From assembly GCF_029589435.1 (NCBI RefSeq), contig NZ_JARRAG010000002.1, positions 1,116,001 through 1,180,000 on the forward strand: 64,000 nt of DNA. The letters run 5' to 3'. Position 1 is the first letter of the stretch. Each line of letters opens with the position of its first letter. A program made the translations under genes and the position numbers. This stretch comes from Paludisphaera mucosa. GTDB taxonomy: Bacteria > Planctomycetota > Planctomycetia > Isosphaerales > Isosphaeraceae. The notes beneath the pieces are model-generated. The model saw nothing but the letters and a program-made list of their open reading frames with translations, did not search any database and was not told the DNA's origin. Below, piece by piece: positions 2,349-43,391 of the stretch.

Positions 2349-3695
2349 TCAGGGCTTCGGCCCGTCCCCGGCGGCGGCGGCGAGGCGGCCCAGCAAGGCG
2401 AGCCCGATCGCGTCGACGTCGTTCGCCGAGTTCGACAGGACCGCGACGCCCACGCGCGAACCGGGGATGAACCCGATGAAGCTGCGATACCCGCCCGTGC
2501 CGCCGTTGTGCCAGAGGGCCGTCGCCCCGGCCCCGACCGTCGCCTCCTGCCAGCCCAGGCGGACCCGGCCCGTCGGGGGGATGTAGCCACTTAGCAGCCC
2601 GGCGAGGCCTACGACGACGAACAGGGTCGTCCCGGCCGGCAGCCAGCCGAATTGCGACCCCCAGAGCGCCATGCATCCGGCCCAGGTCGCGGCCGCCGCC
2701 CAGGCCCCCGACCAGAAGCCCTTCCACGCCAGGGCCGCCAGCGCCGGGAGCAGGGCCGCGGCCAGGAACGTCGCGCTCCCCGGCGGCACGGGGACGGACC
2801 ACTGGACCAGCAGCGACGCGGCCGCCAGGCCGAGGGCGTGCGGCCAGCCGACCCCGATCCGCCGCCGCCAGGCGACCGGCCGGGGGGCCTGGCATTCCCG
2901 CAGCGCCGGCTCCAGCGGGGTCGCCGCCGGATCCAGGTTCGCGCGTAAGAACGTAAGCATCTCGGCGACCGTGGACCGCAGCGCCCCGGCCCCGGCGAAG
3001 GTCGGCAGGTCCCAGCGAGACGTCGGCTCGCCCTTCGCATCGTGGCCCGGCGCCATCCGCGCCTCCTGGTCGGCCGACAGGGCGATCGCCGTGTCCGCCA
3101 ACCCGAGCGGGCGGAGCACCCGCGCGGCCAGCAGGTCCTCGTATGGCTCCCCCGCCCGCAGGGCGAGGACGTGGCCGAGCAGCCCGGCCCCGAGGTTCGA
3201 GTACGACGCGCCGCTGCCGGGCGGGAAGCCGACCCTCGCGGCGTTCAGGTAGGCGTGGAGGTCCTCGACTCCGTAGTCGCGATACGGGTTCTTAGCGTCC
3301 TTGATGGTCGCCCCCAGGTTGCCCGGCAGCCTGGGGAGCGCCGAGGTGTGCTCGGCCAGGTGAGCGAGGGTGATCGGCTCGCCGCGGTAGGCCGGCATGC
3401 GGACGCCCGCCGGCAGCAGCTCGCCGACCGGCCGGTCCAGCCGCACCTCCCCGCTCCCGGCCGCGTCGGCCAGCAGCAAGGCCGTGAACACCTTCGTGAT
3501 CGACCCGATCTCGAACACCGTCCGCCCGTCCGGGACCCGGCCCGAGCCTTTGTCCGTCTCGCCGTAGCCGAGCGCGACCTCCTCGCCCCCGGCCAGGAGC
3601 CCGATCGCCAGCCCGACGTTCCCCGCCGCGCGAAGATAACGCGCGGCCTGCTCGTCGGCCTCCGCCCGCACGACCTCGATCGTCCCCACCGTCAT
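2349..3695 (-). CDS. class C beta-lactamase-like serine hydrolase with an internal membrane domain
   Basis: This 448-residue protein belongs to the serine beta-lactamase/penicillin-binding-protein-like family (PF00144). The nucleophile motif S65-I-T-K68, the Y165-S-N167 triad and H396-N-G (replacing KTG) are all present in the right order, so it should be an active serine hydrolase (D-aminopeptidase, esterase or lactamase type). No clear Sec signal is seen. The oddity is at about residues 284-372: after RIGVGW the normal fold is interrupted by some 85 very hydrophobic residues, about three membrane spans, before RVRLGWQ resumes the fold and leads to HNGGTGGYRS. Family members are usually soluble or have C-terminal membrane spans. 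I infer that the catalytic domain is stapled to the membrane through this insert. Confidence 0.88.
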   Translation of the reverse strand: MTVGTIEVVRAEADEQAARYLRAAGNVGLAIGLLAGGEEVALGYGETDKGSGRVPDGRTVFEIGSITKVFTALLLADAAGSGEVRLDRPVGELLPAGVRMPAYRGEPITLAHLAEHTSALPRLPGNLGATIKDAKNPYRDYGVEDLHAYLNAARVGFPPGSGASYSNLGAGLLGHVLALRAGEPYEDLLAARVLRPLGLADTAIALSADQEARMAPGHDAKGEPTSRWDLPTFAGAGALRSTVAEMLTFLRANLDPAATPLEPALRECQAPRPVAWRRRIGVGWPHALGLAAASLLVQWSVPVPPGSATFLAAALLPALAALAWKGFWSGAWAAAATWAGCMALWGSQFGWLPAGTTLFVVVGLAGLLSGYIPPTGRVRLGWQEATVGAGATALWHNGGTGGYRSFIGFIPGSRVGVAVLSNSANDVDAIGLALLGRLAAAAGDGPKP

Positions 3696-3750: not shown

Positions 3751-3929
3751 CCTTCTCCCCTTCGTGGGAGAAGGTGGCCGCAGGCCGGATGAGGGGCTCG
3801 TCATCCGACGACGGCTTTCTCTTCTCGGGTCACGCTTCGGCCTCGAAGTCCGAGCACCCTACGATTTGGGTCCCCCTCATCCGGCCCTGCGGGCCACCTT
3901 CTCCCACGAGGGGAGAAGGACGATCCGCC
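3751..3929. repeat. two REP-like hairpin units in inverted orientation
   Basis: Two copies of a dispersed intergenic repeat face each other here (about 3751-3796 and 3872-3929), separated by about 75 nt. Each has one GC hairpin of the type CTTCTCCC...GGGAGAAG joined to a second arm GTGGCC...GGCCGGATGAGG. The same unit recurs at about 6013-6070, 16381-16407 (half unit), 43236-43294, 43341-43391, 53521-53570 and 63303-63364, with diverged forms at 38401-38430 and 39001-39030. All are non-coding except the 63.3 kb copy, which falls in the doubtful tail of a reading frame. Such units are REP/BIME-like; a role in mRNA stability, termination or nucleoid binding would be inference. Confidence 0.8.
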
Positions 3930-3989: not shown

Positions 3990-5630
3990 TCACTTCGGGT
4001 CCTCGCGGATGTCGTCGATGGACATCTTCATGTCCGGGAGACGCTTTTTCGTCCAGTCGATCAATCTTTCGGCCATGCGGGACTGATTATCGATCGAGAA
4101 GGTCCCGCGTTGTATCGCGTTGATCTCCTGCCGGTTTCTTTCGATCGACGCCTCCGCGGCTCGAAGCTCTTCTGAGACTTGCGCGACCGTTACAGGGTCA
4201 CCCTTCGCCTTGGTCAGCTTCTCCATCAACACGTTGCGTTGATCCGTATGCCACCTATATTCTTCATCCATATATTTTAGTTTTCGGACTACGTTTTCTT
4301 GTTCATCCTTGATCTCCAGGAGCCGACTCATGATGACGCGGATCGGCTGCACGGCGAGTTCCAGCTCTTCCTGCGAGACGACGTGCTGTTCGGCCAGCTT
4401 CCGGCAGCGTTGGTAGTTCATGTAGGCGTTGACGAGCTCGGCCTCGATCTCCCGCACGCTCCTGGTGCCGGGCGGAGTCGGGGCCGCGGCGGCGATGCGG
4501 TCGTTGGGCTCCACGGCCGTCGGCGGGAGGGGGGCGGGCCTCGCCAGCAGGGCGGCCATGCGGTCGAGCTTCGCCTCCAGCGCGTCCAGTCGCTGGTCGA
4601 CGGGGGCCGGGACGTGCTTCTCTTCGGCCTTCACTGAGACCTCTGGCGCCTCGGTCTTCATGACTTCCGTCTTCGTGTCAACGACCGGAGCGACCTTCTC
4701 GATCTTCACGGCGTCCTGTTGCGCCTCGGGGGGCTTGTCCTGGGCTCCGGGCGCGGCGAGGGCGCCGGAGGCGACGGCGAAGGCCCCGGCGCTCAGGGCG
4801 GCCGAGGTGCAGGCGAGTCCGAGCAGCTTCCACGGGGATGGGGACATCGTCGAGATCGCTCCTTGGGCCAGCGCGGCGGCCGGCCAGGGGGAAGAGGCGG
4901 AGGCGAGCCAGGCCAGGCCGCCGAGGCCCGCGAACCGGCCGGCGGCGGCGACCGTCGCCGCGACGAGCGACGGCGGGACGAGGGATGCGGCCAGGTCCGC
5001 CTTCAGCAGGACCAGGCAGGCGGACGCGTCGACGCCCTGGCGCGTCAGGCGTTGATGGAGGATCGTGCGGGCCTTCGCCATCCGGCTCCGCACCGTGCCC
5101 GACGGCCAGCCCAGCTCGGCGGCCGCCTGGTCGTAGGTCCTGCCGCGCAGGTAGCAGAGCACCAGCGGGGCGCGGTACTTCTCGGGCAGCCGCGACAGCT
5201 CGCGATCGAGGGTCTCGAGCGAGTCGTCGACGGGCCGCTCGGGATCGGCGACGGCCTCGTCGACCTTATCCGGCCCGCCCTCACGGGCCCGGCGGCGGAG
5301 GACGTCGGAGCGGGCGCGGACCGCCACGCGACGGGCCACGCCGTAGAGCCAGCTCGACAGCGCGTCGCCGTCGCGGAGCCCGGCCCCCTTCCGCAGCAGG
5401 ACCAGGAACGTCGCCTGGAAGGCGTCGTCGACGTCGGCGGGGTCGTAGAGGTAGCGTCGGCAGAGCGCCAGCACGAGCGGCCCGTGGCGGTCGACGATCG
5501 CCTCGAAGGCGGCCTCGTCGCGCTCGGCCAGGTACCGATGCAAGAGCCGCGCGTCGCCTCCCGGCGGGTCGACCCCGTCGCGGAGCAGCCGCTCGACCTC
5601 CCGGCCCGTCCACCGTTTCGATCGCCGCAT
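3990..5630 (-). CDS. ECF-type RNA polymerase sigma factor with membrane and coiled-coil C-terminal extension
   Basis: The 546-residue protein begins with a standard ECF sigma core. Region 2 is at about residues 29-107 (FEAIVDRHGPLVLALCRRYL, DVDDAFQATFLVLLRK), and region 4 at about 138-197 (LSRLPEKYRAPLVLCYL, AAELGWPSGTVRSRMAKAR, a helix-turn-helix). ECF factors are normally near 200 residues. This one continues with an Ala-rich hydrophobic stretch (about 215-260), a likely transmembrane helix (about 268-293), a Lys/Glu/Pro linker, and a charged helical, probably coiled-coil region (about 385-546). Long C-terminal extensions are known in planctomycete ECF groups. I infer membrane tethering and regulation through the tail. 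The ATG at 5630 precedes the first recognisable sigma sequence. The pseudokinase-like gene lies upstream on the same strand. Confidence 0.9.
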   Translation of the reverse strand: MRRSKRWTGREVERLLRDGVDPPGGDARLLHRYLAERDEAAFEAIVDRHGPLVLALCRRYLYDPADVDDAFQATFLVLLRKGAGLRDGDALSSWLYGVARRVAVRARSDVLRRRAREGGPDKVDEAVADPERPVDDSLETLDRELSRLPEKYRAPLVLCYLRGRTYDQAAAELGWPSGTVRSRMAKARTILHQRLTRQGVDASACLVLLKADLAASLVPPSLVAATVAAAGRFAGLGGLAWLASASSPWPAAALAQGAISTMSPSPWKLLGLACTSAALSAGAFAVASGALAAPGAQDKPPEAQQDAVKIEKVAPVVDTKTEVMKTEAPEVSVKAEEKHVPAPVDQRLDALEAKLDRMAALLARPAPLPPTAVEPNDRIAAAAPTPPGTRSVREIEAELVNAYMNYQRCRKLAEQHVVSQEELELAVQPIRVIMSRLLEIKDEQENVVRKLKYMDEEYRWHTDQRNVLMEKLTKAKGDPVTVAQVSEELRAAEASIERNRQEINAIQRGTFSIDNQSRMAERLIDWTKKRLPDMKMSIDDIREDPK

Positions 5631-6091
5631 GTCGCCTCGCCCTCCCTCCTCAGAGGCTACTGCAGCGGTCCGCCGCGCAGGTCTCGATTTCCGCGAGGAA
5701 GGCGATTTTCCGCGGTTTCCGCGTGCGCAACCGGCGATCGTGGACCACGGTCGCTTAATGAGGCCGCCGGCCTCGACGCATCGGGTTTCGATTCGAGATG
5801 AGAGGCGGGGGTTCGACGGGGGCGAAAAAATGAAAACGGCGGGAGCGGCGGATGGGGCCGATTTCGCGACGGTAATCCTGAATCGATAAGCTCTTGCGTC
5901 CGATGGGTTCGATGGTCGACGGTGCGAAGGAAGCCGAATCGAAGCCGATCGGACGGGGCGGAGTCCGTCGCCTTGGTTGGGGAGCGGGCGGGCTCGATGT
6001 CCGGCGAGCTGCGTGCTCGTCTTCCCCCTCATCCGGCCTTCGGCCACCTTCCCCCGCGAGGGGGGAAGGACGTTGAGAGGGGGTCGGGGGG
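5631..6091. other. intergenic region between pseudokinase and sigma-factor genes
   Basis: No gene is supported in these 461 bases. The half nearest the sigma gene (5630-5900) is comparatively AT-rich for this genome and is the expected promoter region for the sigma-factor gene on the minus strand. The half nearest 6091 holds one REP-like repeat. I could not pick a convincing -35/-10 pair. Confidence 0.55.
6013..6070. repeat. REP-like hairpin unit
   Basis: One complete unit of the dispersed repeat: the lead GCTCGTCTTCCCCCTCATCC, then the GGCC...GGCC arm and the CTTCCCCC...GGGGGAAG hairpin. The lead recurs in inverted form beside the 43.2 and 63.3 kb copies, so the repeat unit includes it and is longer than the hairpin alone. 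The copy lies directly downstream of the kinase-like gene and could act as a 3'-end structure. Confidence 0.78.
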
Positions 6092-8392
6092 TCAGCCGGC
6101 GGGGGACTGTTTGGCGGCGAGGTCGGCGAGGAGCTTTTTGAAGTCGGCGCGGGGGCGCAGGGGGTCGAGGGCGGGGTCGTGGAGGTAGACGTCGAGGCGG
6201 TCGAAGCCCTGGGCGACGGCCTGGCGGAGGGCGCTCACGGCGCGTCGGGCGTAGACGTTGCGGCGGAGGCGGTCGTGGGGGCCGAGCGCCGGATCCTCGG
6301 CGTCCTCGATCGGCTTGCCGCCGTCCTTGACGCCGATCAGGGTCAGGCCGAGCGAGAGGTTGCAGGCCAGGGCGTAGGCGTCGTCGGCGTCGCGTTCCTT
6401 CAGGCCTTCGAGCAGGTCGGCGGCGCCCTGGAAGGCCTTGAGGGCCTCGGCGAGGCGGCCCTCCTGGGCGAGCAGCCGGCCCCGGAGCTGCCGCGAGAAC
6501 GCCAGCGCCGTCACGTCCCGGGGCTCGTCGGGCCGCTCGACGGTCAGCCGTTCGAGGAGCGCCTGGGCCTTCTCGGCGCGGGCCATGGCCTCGGCGCGTT
6601 GGCCGCGGCCGCGGAGCATCTCGGAGTCGAGGTTGTAGGCTGAGGCCAATTCGGCCCGGTAGGCGGGGTCGGCGGGGAACTTCGCGGCCAGGCCTTCGAG
6701 GACGGCCGTCGCGCGCGTCATGGCCTCGGCGGCGGGCTTGGCCTGGCCGGCCGACTGCTGGAGGTCGGCCATGTCCACGAGCCGCGCGGCCGTGTCGAGG
6801 GCGATCCGCGGAAGGTCCTTCGCCGGCCCCGGGGTCGCGTCCAGGACCTGGATCGCGCGGTCGAGGGCGAGCGCCGCGGTCGGCAGGCCGTCCTCGCGGT
6901 CGCTCATCGTCCGGGCGAGCAGGGCGTAGGCCGAGGCCAGCTCGATCCGCGTCTCGGGGCGGCCGGGCTCGGCCCAGCTCAGCTCCTCCAGCAGCCGGAT
7001 CGCCGACCGGATCGAGCCCAGGGCCGACTGGCCTTGCTTCTGTCGGCGCTGGATCACGGCCTGGTCGTGCATCACCCGGGCCAGGCGGCGGCGGATCCGG
7101 GGCTCGTCGGGCCGGGCGTCGGCGAGCGCCAGGTAGCCCGCGCGGGCCGATTCCAGGCTCGCCAGGGCGGCGTCGGCCGCCGGCCCCGCCCCGCCCGGGT
7201 CGAGCGCGCGGCCGAGCCCCGCGCGGGACTCGGCCAGCCGCTCGGCGAAGCCCGCGTCGCCCAGGTGGCGCGCGGCCAGGTACTTCCACAGGTCGGCCGC
7301 CGTTCGAAAGCCGGCGGCGGCCTGGGGCTTCCGCCCCAGCGCCCCGTCGATCGTCGCGACCCGGGTGCGGGCGTCGGCGGCCTCGGCCAGCGTCTCCGGG
7401 CTCCGGCCGGCGGCGGCGACGACGCCTTCGTAGTAGCCGCGGGCGGCCTCCAGCAGCTCGCGCCGGAGGCCGCGGGCGTCGCCCTCGGCGGCCTCGTCGT
7501 CGGCCAGGCGGTCGAGGGCCGTCGCCATCGCCGCACGCGCCGAGGCGGCCGCCGCCGCGGCCCGGTCGCGCTCGCGGAGCAAGCTGCGCGCCCGGAAGGC
7601 CTCCCATCCGCCCCAGGCGAGCATGCCGACGACCGTCGCCGCCAGGGCCGCCGCGACCCACCGGCGGCGCCGGACGAACCGGACGACCCGCCCCCATTCG
7701 GACGTCCGGGCCGCCCGCACCGGCAGGCCGGCGAGGTAGGCGTCGAGGTCGTCCGCCAGGGCCGCGGCCGAGGCGTGGCGCCGCTCCGGCTCCTTGCGGA
7801 TCGCCTCCAGCACGATCGCGTCCAGGTCCGCCCCGATCTCCCGGCGGCGCTCGCCCGTCGCGGCGCGGCCGGGACGTTCCGGGGCCTGCTCGCTGATCGC
7901 CAGGGCCGTCGCCGAGGGGTCCGCCGGGTCGACCGCGATCGGCGGCCGTCCCGTCAGCAGCTCGTAGAGCACGGCCCCCAGCGCGTAGACGTCGGCGGCC
8001 GTGGTGGGGGCCTCGCCGAGCACCTGCTCGGGGCTCGTGCAGGCGTCGAGCGCGTCCGGGTCCGCCTCGCCCGCCGCGATCTCGGCCGGCTCGCCCGCGG
8101 CGGTCGTCCCCAGCCGCGACGGCCGCAGGTCGCCGAAGATCCGGCCCCGCTGGTGGGCCCGGTGGACCATCCGGCAGGCCGCCTGGAACAGCCGCAGCCG
8201 CGCGGGGACGTCCAGGCCCAGGCGGTCGCAGCGGGCGGCGATCGGCTCGATCGGCCCGGCGTCCTCGTCGGCCCCGGTCTCGCCCCCCCGCCCCGCCGGA
8301 TCGCCGATCGCGTCGGCCGCGATCGCCTCGAGCGCGGAGTCTTCGAGCGGATCCGGACGGTCCTCGACGCGCTCTTCCTCGGCCTGGCTCAT
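6092..8392 (-). CDS. degenerate Ser/Thr kinase-like membrane protein with TPR-type C-terminus (predicted pseudokinase)
   Basis: This 766-residue protein resembles the C-lobe of Hanks-type kinases, but its glycine loop and VAIK-lysine N-lobe are absent. The catalytic-loop region reads GRIFGDLRPSRLG at about residues 83-95, where active kinases have HRDLKPSN: the Asp is kept, but His-Arg, the Lys and the Mg-binding Asn are changed. The DFG motif is replaced by AGE near 107-109. The SPEQ (120-123), DVYALGAVLYELLTGRPP and RKEPERRHASA segments are clearly kinase-derived. A single transmembrane helix follows at about 245-263, then a long alanine-rich helical region compatible with TPR repeats. I infer a catalytically dead, membrane-anchored scaffold. 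It precedes the ECF sigma gene on the same strand. Start ATG at 8392 was chosen because upstream sequence in frame looks non-coding. Confidence 0.85.
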   Translation of the reverse strand: MSQAEEERVEDRPDPLEDSALEAIAADAIGDPAGRGGETGADEDAGPIEPIAARCDRLGLDVPARLRLFQAACRMVHRAHQRGRIFGDLRPSRLGTTAAGEPAEIAAGEADPDALDACTSPEQVLGEAPTTAADVYALGAVLYELLTGRPPIAVDPADPSATALAISEQAPERPGRAATGERRREIGADLDAIVLEAIRKEPERRHASAAALADDLDAYLAGLPVRAARTSEWGRVVRFVRRRRWVAAALAATVVGMLAWGGWEAFRARSLLRERDRAAAAAASARAAMATALDRLADDEAAEGDARGLRRELLEAARGYYEGVVAAAGRSPETLAEAADARTRVATIDGALGRKPQAAAGFRTAADLWKYLAARHLGDAGFAERLAESRAGLGRALDPGGAGPAADAALASLESARAGYLALADARPDEPRIRRRLARVMHDQAVIQRRQKQGQSALGSIRSAIRLLEELSWAEPGRPETRIELASAYALLARTMSDREDGLPTAALALDRAIQVLDATPGPAKDLPRIALDTAARLVDMADLQQSAGQAKPAAEAMTRATAVLEGLAAKFPADPAYRAELASAYNLDSEMLRGRGQRAEAMARAEKAQALLERLTVERPDEPRDVTALAFSRQLRGRLLAQEGRLAEALKAFQGAADLLEGLKERDADDAYALACNLSLGLTLIGVKDGGKPIEDAEDPALGPHDRLRRNVYARRAVSALRQAVAQGFDRLDVYLHDPALDPLRPRADFKKLLADLAAKQSPAG

Positions 8393-8538
8393 GAGACTGA
8401 CGGCTCCCGATGCTGCAACACATAACGATACGATCGAGGCTTTCGACTTGAATGCCGGCGATCGGACGGTATCATCATAGCGTCTCCCTTCGTGCGTGCG
8501 TTCCCCCAGCGGCCTTCCGGCCCCGGCTTCGAGCCGAC

Positions 8539-8985
8539 ATGACCCGACGACGCCGACCACCTTCGACGCCCCTCGCGCCCGCGGCGTTCCTCGCCCTGCT
8601 CGCGCTCGCCGCCCTTGCGCCGAGGTCGGCCGAGGCCGGTTGCGCGTCGCGCGGCCACGCCGTCGCGCGGCCCGGGGCGTTCGGGCTGGGGGCGCTCGCC
8701 GAGCTGTCGGGCGTCGCCGACGCCCGGGACGGCTCGGCGTCGGACGCGCCCCCGCCGGGCCGCGTCCCCCCCTGCTCCGGGCCCTCCTGCTCGGGAGGGC
8801 CGGGCGTCCCCCTGGCCCCCGCGATCGTCGCGCCCGACCTCGGGCGCGAGCTGTGGTGCAACACCGCCGCGGCCCCCCGTCGCGACCGGACGGGGCGCTC
8901 CCTCGCCTCGTTCGAGGACGCGCCGCTCCACCCCTCCTCCGCCCCGGCCGGCGTCGACCGCCCCCCTCGACGCCCCGCCGCCTGA
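8539..8985 (+). CDS. small secreted protein of unknown function
   Basis: The 148-residue product begins with a basic lead and a clear Sec-type signal peptide (about residues 12-33, AAFLALLALAALAPRSAEAG, cleavage after AEA). The mature part is Pro/Ser/Gly-rich with a small cysteine cluster (PPCSGPSCSGG), then LGRELWCNT and an Arg/Pro-rich end. I recognise no family. The antisense strand is also open but gives a low-complexity Arg/Gly/Ala product. The signal peptide is the main reason to accept the plus strand. It is divergent from the kinase-like gene. Confidence 0.5.
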   Translation: MTRRRRPPSTPLAPAAFLALLALAALAPRSAEAGCASRGHAVARPGAFGLGALAELSGVADARDGSASDAPPPGRVPPCSGPSCSGGPGVPLAPAIVAPDLGRELWCNTAAAPRRDRTGRSLASFEDAPLHPSSAPAGVDRPPRRPAA

Positions 8986-9292: not shown

Positions 9293-11563
9293 ATGCAGCA
9301 CGAGACGAGGTGGCGCCGGAGGAAGGGCGTCGGCGCGACGCTGTTCGTCGGCCTGGTGGCGATCGGGGCGCTCGGGGCCGGGGTGAAGGTCTTCCTCCCC
9401 CGGCCGGCGGTCAAGGCCATGGCCGATCGGCGGTTGCCGTACCAGAAGCGGGGCGTGATCGACACCAGCGGGTTCTCGATGATCACCTCCGCGGTGGAGC
9501 CCTGGGCCCCGACGGCGACCCTGGCGGAGATCCGCGAGCACTGGGTCGGCGTCGGCAGGCGGGCGATCGAGAAGATGGAGCGCGAGGACGCCTCGGGCCG
9601 CGTCATGCTCGGCTCCCGGGTCGTCCACGACGTCGCCTGGGCCACCCTGCTCCAGGCCGAGGGGGATCCGGTCGCCGCCGGCGGCGTGCTGGCCAAGGCC
9701 CGCGCGCTGGCCGAGGCCGACGACGCCCTGGGCGTGAAGTTCCTGCCCAGCCTGGTCTACTTCCAGGGGGTCGCGGCGCTGCGGCGGGGCGAGAACGACA
9801 ACTGCGTCATGTGCCGGGGGGACAGCTCCTGCATCCTGCCGATCTCGAAGTCGGCGCGGCACAAGGACCCGACCGGCTCGAAGGCCGCGATCGGCTTCTT
9901 CACCGAGCTGCTGGAGAAGTTCCCCGACGACCTGGAGGCGATGTGGCTGCTCAACATCGCCCACATGACGCTCGGCCAGTACCCCGACGGGGTCGACCCG
10001 CGGTTCCGGCTGGACCTCGACCGCTACGTGAAGACCGAGTTCGACATCGGCCGGTTCCGCGACGTCGGCCAGGCGGCCGGCGTGAACCGCTACGACCAGG
10101 CCGGCGGCGCGATCATGGAGGACTTCGACGGCGACGGCCTGCTCGACCTCTTCATGACCTCGTTCGACCCCAAGCAGGCCGCCGGCTTCTTCCGCAACAA
10201 GGGCGACGGCACCTTCGAGGACCGCGGCGCGTCCGCCGGCCTGGCGGGCCAGTACGGCGGCCTCTACTGCGTGCAGGCCGACTACGACGGCGACGGCCTG
10301 ATGGACGTCTTCATCCCCCGCGGCGCCTGGCTCAAGACCCCCATGCGGCCCTCGCTGCTGAAGAACCAGGGGGGCGGCGTCTTCGTCGACGCGACCGACC
10401 GGGCGGGCCTCGCCGAGGCGATGAACTCCAACTCCGCCGCCTGGGCCGACTACGACAACGACGGCGACGTCGACCTGTTCGTCTGCGAGGAGCGGCGCAC
10501 CAACCGCCTCTACCGCAACAAGGGCGACGGCGCCTTCGAAGACGCCACGGTCGAGGTCGGCCTGGCGGACCCCTCGCGGACCTTCTGCAAGGGGGCCTGC
10601 TGGGTCGACTTCGACAACGACGGCGACCCCGACCTGTTCGCCAGCTTCCTCAACGGCCTGTCGCAGCTCTACCGCAACGACGGCGGCGAGTTCGTCGACG
10701 CGACCGAGGCCATGGGCGTGCGCGGGCCGATGACCGGCTTCTCGTGCTGGGCCTTCGACTACGACAACGACGGCTGGGTCGACGTCTTCGCCACGTGCTA
10801 CGACCGCTCGCTGGGCGACGTGGTCAAGGGGCTGCTGGGCCGCCCCCACGGCCGCTACCCGAACCGGCTGTACCGCAACGTCGAGGGCCGCAAGTTCGTC
10901 GACGAGACCCGCAAGGCCGGGCTCGACATGTGCTTCTCGACGATGGGGAGCAACTTCGCCGACTTCGACAACGACGGCTTCCTCGACTTCTACCTGGGCA
11001 CCGGCGAGCCCAGCATGGCGACCCTGATCCCCAACCGGATGTTCAAGAACGTCGAGGGCCGGCGGTTCTCGGAAGTGACGGGCTCGGCGGGCGTCGGCCA
11101 CCTCCAGAAGGGCCACGCCGTCGCCTGCGGCGACTACGACCGCGACGGCGACGTCGACCTCTTCGCGCAGACGGGCGGGGCCGTCGACGGCGACCGCTAC
11201 CACAACGTCCTGTTCCAGAACCCCGGCCAGGGCCGGCGCTCGCTGACGATCAAGCTGGTCGGCGTGAAGACGAACCGCGCGGCGATCGGGGCGCGGATCA
11301 AGGTCGTGTCCGCCGGACCGAAGCCGCAGGCGGTCCACCGGACCGTCGGCTCGGGCAGCAGCTTCGGGGCCAACGCCCTCGAACAGACCATCGGCCTGGC
11401 CGACGCCGAGGGGGCCGCCCTGATCGAGGTCTACTGGCCGACCAGCAAGACCACCCAGACCTTCCGCGACGTCCCCGCCGGCCGCGTGATCGAGATCACC
11501 GAGTTCGCGGCCGACTACCGCACGCTCGACGGCCGGCCGCAGGCGGTCGCGCTCCGGAAGTGA
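9293..11563 (+). CDS. CRTAC1-like protein: FG-GAP/VCBS repeats plus ASPIC/UnbV domain
   Basis: The 756-residue protein has an N-terminal signal anchor (about residues 12-30). A helical region follows (to about 250) containing an unusual NCVMCRGDSSC cysteine cluster. Then come at least seven calcium-binding-type repeats of the form DFDGDGLLDLF / DYDNDGDVDLF, the FG-GAP/VCBS beta-propeller. The C-terminus (about 640-720, SLTIKLVG, AIGARIKV, VGSGSSFGA) matches the ASPIC/UnbV domain that usually ends CRTAC1-type proteins. These are exported proteins, abundant in planctomycetes, assumed to bind ligands or the cell surface; no enzymatic activity is known. It is the first of several exported proteins in this part of the window and converges on the PVC-type CxxCH gene. 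Confidence 0.93.
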   Translation: MQHETRWRRRKGVGATLFVGLVAIGALGAGVKVFLPRPAVKAMADRRLPYQKRGVIDTSGFSMITSAVEPWAPTATLAEIREHWVGVGRRAIEKMEREDASGRVMLGSRVVHDVAWATLLQAEGDPVAAGGVLAKARALAEADDALGVKFLPSLVYFQGVAALRRGENDNCVMCRGDSSCILPISKSARHKDPTGSKAAIGFFTELLEKFPDDLEAMWLLNIAHMTLGQYPDGVDPRFRLDLDRYVKTEFDIGRFRDVGQAAGVNRYDQAGGAIMEDFDGDGLLDLFMTSFDPKQAAGFFRNKGDGTFEDRGASAGLAGQYGGLYCVQADYDGDGLMDVFIPRGAWLKTPMRPSLLKNQGGGVFVDATDRAGLAEAMNSNSAAWADYDNDGDVDLFVCEERRTNRLYRNKGDGAFEDATVEVGLADPSRTFCKGACWVDFDNDGDPDLFASFLNGLSQLYRNDGGEFVDATEAMGVRGPMTGFSCWAFDYDNDGWVDVFATCYDRSLGDVVKGLLGRPHGRYPNRLYRNVEGRKFVDETRKAGLDMCFSTMGSNFADFDNDGFLDFYLGTGEPSMATLIPNRMFKNVEGRRFSEVTGSAGVGHLQKGHAVACGDYDRDGDVDLFAQTGGAVDGDRYHNVLFQNPGQGRRSLTIKLVGVKTNRAAIGARIKVVSAGPKPQAVHRTVGSGSSFGANALEQTIGLADAEGAALIEVYWPTSKTTQTFRDVPAGRVIEITEFAADYRTLDGRPQAVALRK

Positions 11564-43235: not shown

Positions 43236-43391
43236 GCCTTCCCCCCTCGCGGGGGAAGGTGGCCCGGAGGGCCGGATGAGGGGGAGACGAGCACAAATGC
43301 CGTCGTCATAACATCCGGCCTGCCGGCGGATTCCGTCGAAGCTTCCCCCTCATCCAACCCCTGCGGGGTCTGCCTTCCCCCGCGAGGGGGG
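43236..43391. repeat. two REP-like hairpin units in inverted orientation
   Basis: Units at about 43236-43294 and 43341-43391 face each other across some 45 nt, the same arrangement as at 3.75-3.93 kb. The first has the GGCCC...GGGCC second arm, the second has the ACCCCTGCGGGGTC-type arm, so the pair combines both subtypes. With the terminator they fill the 322-nt gap between the convergent genes. Confidence 0.78.

Follow-up and report, generated by a model that had tools for sequence, protein, structure and literature searches.

An apparent kinase C-lobe without its N-lobe in a membrane TPR-like protein of Paludisphaera mucosa, beside a sigma factor that looks like a chance neighbour

Receptor kinases that join a PknB-like domain to a membrane helix and a tetratricopeptide repeat (TPR)-like region are known from Planctomycetota: in 'Ca. 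Uabimicrobium amorphum' the kinase is predicted to be cytoplasmic and the TPR part periplasmic, similar domain combinations occur in other Planctomycetota, and the same survey counts a kinase domain as functional only if its K, D and D sites are present (accessible portion of PMC11032199). Here we describe a gene with this architecture, encoding the 766-amino-acid protein P0001, in a 64,000-nt stretch of the Paludisphaera mucosa genome (contig NZ_JARRAG010000002.1, positions 1,116,001 to 1,180,000; hereafter the window, whose own positions serve as coordinates, the genome itself being G000). P0001 shares with the planctomycetal PknB-like TPR kinases the order of kinase, membrane helix and TPR-like part, as well as a PknB-homologous C-lobe, but lacks the N-lobe and has lost the catalytic motifs. 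As a whole, the explanation that we rate slightly better than even is that P0001 is a receptor kinase whose N-lobe has been deleted and which would now act as a membrane-held, non-catalytic docking receptor, with the neighbouring sigma factor, P0002, separate from it.

Pseudokinases provide the second comparison. The bacterial examples treated in the available part of PMC12599244 (EssB/YukC, MviN and others) resemble P0001 in being non-catalytic and in having lost motifs, with EssB/YukC a membrane-bound scaffold; the pseudokinase fold under discussion there has two lobes, the ATP site being damaged. All 12 entries in Table 1 of that paper have an equivalent of the N-lobe VAIK motif, whereas P0001 has no N-lobe, and neither 'truncat' nor 'N-terminal lobe' appears in the main text of the paper. 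A literature search, with most subscription papers outside its reach, turned up no description of C-lobe-only or N-lobe-lacking kinases.

The P0001 gene (6092..8392, minus strand) was characterized by Pfam, a match to PDB sequences and an AlphaFold2 model. Its Pfam Pkinase match is limited to residues 120-212, which correspond to profile positions 165-258, and scores 21.4 bits, below the 31.7 cut-off; among PDB sequences, phmmer pairs residues 66-228 with a PknB chain (its residues 119-288; E 5.2e-16). The C-lobe itself spans residues 51-225 (7718..8242, minus strand), on the evidence of alignment, the model, Foldseek and regional substitution rates. Its catalytic loop is FGDLRPSR, against HRDLKPSN in relatives, with the loop Asp retained; DFG is absent, and SPEQ, DVYALG and ERRH are kept. 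Of the features of an active Hanks-type kinase, the N-lobe with its Gly-rich loop and VAIK Lys is missing, and so are HRD and DFG; of those of a pseudokinase, homology to a kinase domain is found for the C-lobe only, and a C-lobe alone is modelled where a two-lobed fold would be expected. When the whole genome was searched for Pkinase matches in six frames (E up to 0.001), no N-lobe piece was listed near the gene. Judged by its sequence, P0001 is probably a dead kinase that retains only the C-lobe: of the residues needed to bind ATP and transfer phosphate in the ordinary way, only the loop Asp remains; an earlier sequence-only reading of this locus was right that the N-lobe, the His and Arg of HRD, the loop Lys and Asn, and DFG had all been lost. 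Ahead of the C-lobe lies an acidic segment (residues 1-50; 8243..8392, minus strand) with a short helix at residues 15-28, assigned from the alignment and the model, and, compared by eye, it is like the stretch that precedes the N-lobe in longer orthologues.

Structurally, the AlphaFold2 model, built on an alignment with 15 relatives (mean predicted local distance difference test score, pLDDT, 84), comprises a C-lobe helical bundle (residues 51-225; pLDDT about 72-95), then a long helix (244-298) and finally a helical solenoid (306-762). The remnant is thus predicted to fold as a kinase C-lobe, and in a Foldseek search of the PDB the top matches are PknB kinase domains, with template modelling (TM) scores of 0.55 to 0.59 by target length among the PknB matches listed, followed by TPR proteins. 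The presumed membrane helix (residues 245-263; 7604..7660, minus strand) coincides with the hydropathy maximum of the protein, at 1.49 modest on a simple scan, and with the long helix of the model. Pfam finds no TPR in P0001 itself, and the only NCBIfam match of this kind, TPR_END_plus, scores 20.3 bits, under its cut-off of 32. We nevertheless call the solenoid (residues 306-762; 6107..7477, minus strand) TPR-like because of the model, the Foldseek matches to TPR proteins and the Pfam TPR matches in P0001 orthologues, for example those of G028 and G014. The TPR-like region proposed from sequence and, as a probable one, the membrane helix are broadly borne out, with the modest hydropathy and the lack of a Pfam TPR in P0001 as qualifications. 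Elsewhere in G000, six further Pkinase matches limited to the C-lobe and one starting at profile position 48 were considered as half-kinases and rejected, each having, by our own reading, N-lobe-like sequence upstream in frame; locus L090 has an N-lobe-only match, and for the remaining split matches an N-lobe piece is listed close by.

A scan of the G000 contig with P0001 peptide patterns gave no relatives; these came from a family-wide search. With a 14-row profile of the membrane-TPR part, 45 genomes of the order yielded 14 full-length matches of at least 612 bits, these being the rows that built the profile, and one match of 518 bits in G016, the sole independent member, whose gene is split over contigs; the next matches reach at most 334 bits, and a contig-edge fragment in G019 (262 bits) was left out of the count. 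P0001 orthologues are thereby placed in 15 genomes under five genus codes: g1 (G000 and G028-G032), g2 (G001, G002), g11 (G014), g13 (G016, G018, G020) and g14 (G021-G023). A DUF1501 gene follows the kinase gene in G028 of g1 and in G021, G022 and G023 of g14; in these three g14 genomes, as in G014, G001 and G020, a metallophosphoesterase gene is found no more than about 4 kb from the kinase gene (Pfam names were checked for some of these neighbours); these shared neighbours support the orthology of the kinase genes.

The orthologues form a series of decay. In G016 the kinase is intact: HRDLKPGN and DFG are present, as are the Lys and the Gly-rich loop. In G014 the N-lobe persists and the catalytic loop is HRDLKPSN, with GLG in place of DFG; G020, also with GLG, lacks the Lys and reads HRDLTPGN; and in G021 and G022 the N-lobe is weak and the loop reads HGEL. 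The other ten (all six of g1, G001, G002, G018 and G023) have no N-lobe, the last of them still carrying HGDLKPQN and DFG. That an N-lobe might be found in other members had been named by the sequence-only reading as a point against its own proposal, and five of the 15 orthologues do have one. In the ten N-lobe-less genes, as we read them, the short acidic segment of the N-terminus is joined to the alpha-D region that follows the hinge, and all ten retain the alpha-F Asp (DVY or DIH), which in G031 lies within the second reading frame. Genus code g13 by itself includes an intact form (G016), a decayed one (G020) and one without the N-lobe (G018), a natural series for asking what a lone kinase C-lobe can do.

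Evolutionarily, the N-lobe appears to have been lost more than once. When N-lobe presence is mapped on a 20-row tree built from the membrane-TPR columns, without those of the N-lobe, it takes four state changes. The approximately unbiased (AU) test rejects a single clade of all N-lobe-less rows, a group defined by the trait (p = 2.8e-8), and, among sub-groups named after inspection of the tree, also rejects g1+g2+G018 (p = 0.012), g1+g2+G023 (p = 6.6e-5) and G018+G023 (p = 3.9e-5), but not g1+g2 (p = 0.37). Because these joint clades are rejected and g1+g2 is not, three losses, perhaps four, fit the sequences best, and a single loss is rejected. The neighbouring genes common within g13 and within g14 agree with separate losses.

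We asked how the remnant changes by comparing nonsynonymous divergence (dN) between regions in five of the six g1 genomes, all N-lobe-less (10 pairs; G031 left out for a frame break); dN contrasts were used rather than dN/dS, as synonymous rates are hard to read in such GC-rich genes. By parsimony, the C-lobe substitutions within g1 would postdate the loss of the N-lobe. Residues 119-225 have the lowest dN of six separate regions in all 10 pairs, with 66 to 85% identity, and in the G000-G030 pair their dN is 0.093 against 0.245 for the TPR region. Going by these substitutions, every other region of the protein changes faster in this genus than the APE-to-alpha-I half of the C-lobe. This bears on the possibility that P0001 is a decaying remnant, with a functional TPR part and a C-lobe that is passively kept or rotting. 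Such a course would fit the loss of active-site motifs to differing degrees across lineages, the frame breaks in G031 and G023, and the faster evolution of the catalytic-loop part (51-118), whose dN exceeds that of 119-225 and stays below that of the TPR region in every one of the 10 pairs. It fits less well with the low dN of residues 119-225 among genomes that had already lost the N-lobe, with the confidently modelled C-lobe or with the alpha-F Asp that all ten N-lobe-less genes retain, and we regard it as unlikely.

The docking explanation can be set out as follows. P0001 would be a former PknB-like receptor kinase, ordered kinase, membrane helix and TPR, from which the whole N-lobe was deleted; the C-lobe remnant would be a non-catalytic cytoplasmic docking surface held by the membrane helix and controlled by the TPR solenoid outside the membrane. 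This orientation is assumed on the basis of the topology predicted for planctomycetal TPR kinases in the accessible portion of PMC11032199. The C-lobe would then behave as do non-catalytic kinase C-lobes that recruit or activate partners. A broader proposal, which we put forward tentatively and hold at a little less than even, is that such half-kinases are an evolved class, in which one receptor-kinase gene lost its whole N-lobe by cuts at the hinge on three or more occasions, and the C-lobe that was left is a strongly constrained, membrane-held docking module without an ATP site. A rival explanation would make the C-lobe an allosteric activator or decoy, which pairs with an active Ser/Thr kinase from another locus and switches that kinase on or off. 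The 93 kinase loci of G000 are possible partners, the retained half of the C-lobe would include the surface used in such contacts, and in HER3 the C-lobe activator surface alone is conserved (available part of PMC3014569); by this analogy such pairing is conceivable, and we think it quite unlikely.

Several points weigh against the docking explanation and the repeated losses on which the broader proposal builds. No partner of P0001 was found, and docking is something we infer; the membrane helix reaches only its modest value on the hydropathy scan. As kinase domains generally change less than TPR regions do, some of the dN contrast, measured here on N-lobe-less pairs throughout, may be a legacy of kinase ancestry. 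The kinase genes of G031 (L032) and G023 (L046) are each read in two frames with one break, reflecting assembly error or real decay, and G023 counts among the separate losses. The separate loss in G018 is the least secure, resting on p = 0.012 and a fairly long branch, and several deep branches of the tree are weakly supported.

Beside P0001, and on the same minus strand, lies the gene of P0002 (3990..5630), an extracytoplasmic function (ECF) sigma factor of 546 amino acids with a C-terminal hydrophobic segment and a helical tail, which in our judgement stands outside any unit with P0001. In described ECF-Ser/Thr kinase pairs (ECF43, ECF59, ECF61 and ECF62; accessible parts of PMC8103513 and PMC8999054) a sigma gene likewise stands beside a kinase-like gene. 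The P0001-P0002 arrangement differs, as far as can be judged from sequence, in that the pair is not conserved, the order is reversed, the kinase appears inactive and the acidic region 2.2 is kept. In EcfP, by the available part of PMC8999054, the acidic region 2.2 motif is missing and the charge is supplied by phosphorylation; an uncharged region 2.2 is shown there for ECF43, and an acidic motif may persist in other groups linked to kinases. Clear examples of the paired type among our loci are those of G039 and G041, in which a PF07638 sigma gene, with HTLQPTA at the aligned region 2.2 place, overlaps by 4 nt the start of an intact related TPR kinase gene (L044:5101-5682 and 5679-8456; L047:5313-6056 and 6053-8827).

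The sequence-only reading had joined P0001 and P0002 into a signalling unit, in which the pseudokinase scaffold would directly control the membrane-tethered sigma factor and stand in for an anti-sigma factor. Their coordinates, strands and the 461-nt gap between them (5631-6091) were verified, and the two are likewise adjacent on one strand in G030, but these are the only two of 14 orthologues with a P0002-type sigma gene downstream, so the conserved adjacency of ECF-Ser/Thr kinase pairs is not seen (at least 1.9 kb was seen downstream in 14 of the 15; the G018 contig ends 249 nt past the gene). The P0002 orthologue lies on another contig than the kinase in G029, about 3 Mb off in G031 and about 25 kb off in G032; it adjoins a MatE gene in G032 and is about 2.5 kb from one in G031, these being 85 and 81% identical, respectively, to the MatE gene at 900-2312 of the window, and two P0002 relatives in G028 are far from its kinase gene. 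Partnership is therefore unsupported, with the gene order kept in two of 14 and the orthologues elsewhere in G029, G031 and G032; regular unlinking of the homologues had been named by the sequence-only reading itself as evidence that would refute the unit. The order is moreover the reverse of that at 22 of the 93 kinase loci of G000, which have a same-strand sigma region-4 match within about 1 kb upstream (25 within 2.7 kb); only three loci, this one among them, have such a match downstream within 4 kb. From 83 region-4 matches (79 over cut-off) in 8.2 Mb we estimate that about 10% of genes would have a sigma neighbour at up to about 4 kb by chance, and sigma-kinase adjacency is risky as functional evidence in a genome with so many matches and kinase loci. 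The interspersed repeat in the gap and the acidic region 2.2, kept in 12 of 12 sequences and thus differing from that of ECF43, point the same way, the latter as a supporting and not a decisive argument.

What favours a sigma link most is the arrangement in g13, which we do not dismiss and consider the best remaining evidence of some such link, contrary to our own explanation. In all three assessed g13 genomes an ECF with an extended, AhpC-TSA-like tail (L039:8676-10862, L040:3267-5477 and L071:1490-3880, by Pfam) is divergent from the kinase gene, whether intact, decayed or N-lobe-less, the gap being about 1.0 kb (G020), 0.7 kb (G018) or, measured between open reading frame (ORF) ends, 20 nt (G016); in G029 an extended-tail ECF, with a HlyD-like tail by Pfam (L033:10732-12450), lies about 2 kb downstream. 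The G029 and g13 genes are different sigma genes of two further lineages, which we consider compatible with chance. BLASTP with P0002 is blind to PF07638-type sigma factors, having missed those in L044 and L047, and the sigma negatives near orthologues are thus limited to P0002-like kinds. Weighing both sides, we find control of P0002 by a P0001 scaffold very improbable; P0002 looks like a chance neighbour. Among the extended-tail ECFs, the tail domain appears interchangeable.

P0002 can also be compared with ECFs with C-terminal membrane extensions (IutY, ECF48, ECF52 and ECF53; available part of PMC8999054), which combine sigma domains, a probable membrane helix and a tail. It carries sigma-70 region 2 (residues 46-108; 5307..5495, minus strand), with an acidic D-V-D-D in the region 2.2 motif, and region 4 (residues 139-189; 5064..5216, minus strand), both by Pfam, followed by a presumed membrane helix (residues 269-287; 4770..4826, minus strand) at its hydropathy peak of 1.80 and a tail of confidently modelled long helices (residues 392-530; 4041..4457, minus strand). 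The sigma domains and the helical tail bear out the ECF sigma factor that had been read from the sequence; residues 235-342, with the presumed membrane helix, are modelled at pLDDT under 50, and tethering to the membrane through the tail helix is plausible. In contrast to ECF48, ECF52 and ECF53, P0002 has no zinc-finger anti-sigma domain by Pfam (up to E = 1), and its tail consists of long helices. The region 2.2 motif is D-V-[DE]-D in P0002 and all 11 aligned relatives. The family is large and paralogous, with at least 30 matches in 19 of the 45 genomes, and in a tree of 12 chosen relatives P0002 groups with one gene each from G029, G030, G031 and G032 (support 98/97); it belongs to a large, separately evolving family whose tails are probably membrane-anchored. 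By analogy with tail-anchored ECFs, for which proteolytic release is reviewed or expected in the available part of PMC8999054, P0002 most likely works alone, for instance through proteolytic release from the membrane.

On the far side of P0002, between its gene and the MatE gene, a protein of the Pfam Beta-lactamase family (PF00144) is encoded at 2349-3695 (minus strand); such a gene also adjoins the sigma gene in G030, a 64% relative lies elsewhere in G029, and G028, G031 and G032 have distant relatives only. On the other side, a small divergent ORF of 177 amino acids (8452-8985, plus strand) has, by eye, a signal-peptide-like start, with partly similar ORFs at the G032, G028 and G029 loci. 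Next to the P0001 gene is also an FG-GAP / ASPIC-UnbV protein gene (9293-11563, plus strand); relatives occur near the kinase orthologue in G029, G032, G028 and G002, with none seen in the G030 and G031 stretches, and this neighbour is kept more widely beside the kinase than the sigma factor is. In the 461-nt gap (5631..6091), a scan for promoters and terminators found nothing promoter-like and, on the plus strand, a single weak terminator-like site, at chance level. An interspersed palindromic repeat has one copy within the gap (6025-6050, minus strand), which matches the looser pattern only; further copies lie at 3771-3796 (plus), 3873-3900 (minus) and 43256-43283 (plus), so that P0002 is flanked on both sides, by one copy in the gap and two just past the sigma gene. 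With a stricter pattern the genome holds 29 copies, 16 of which form eight inverted pairs spaced 56-254 nt start to start, pairs that we take to be REPIN-like.

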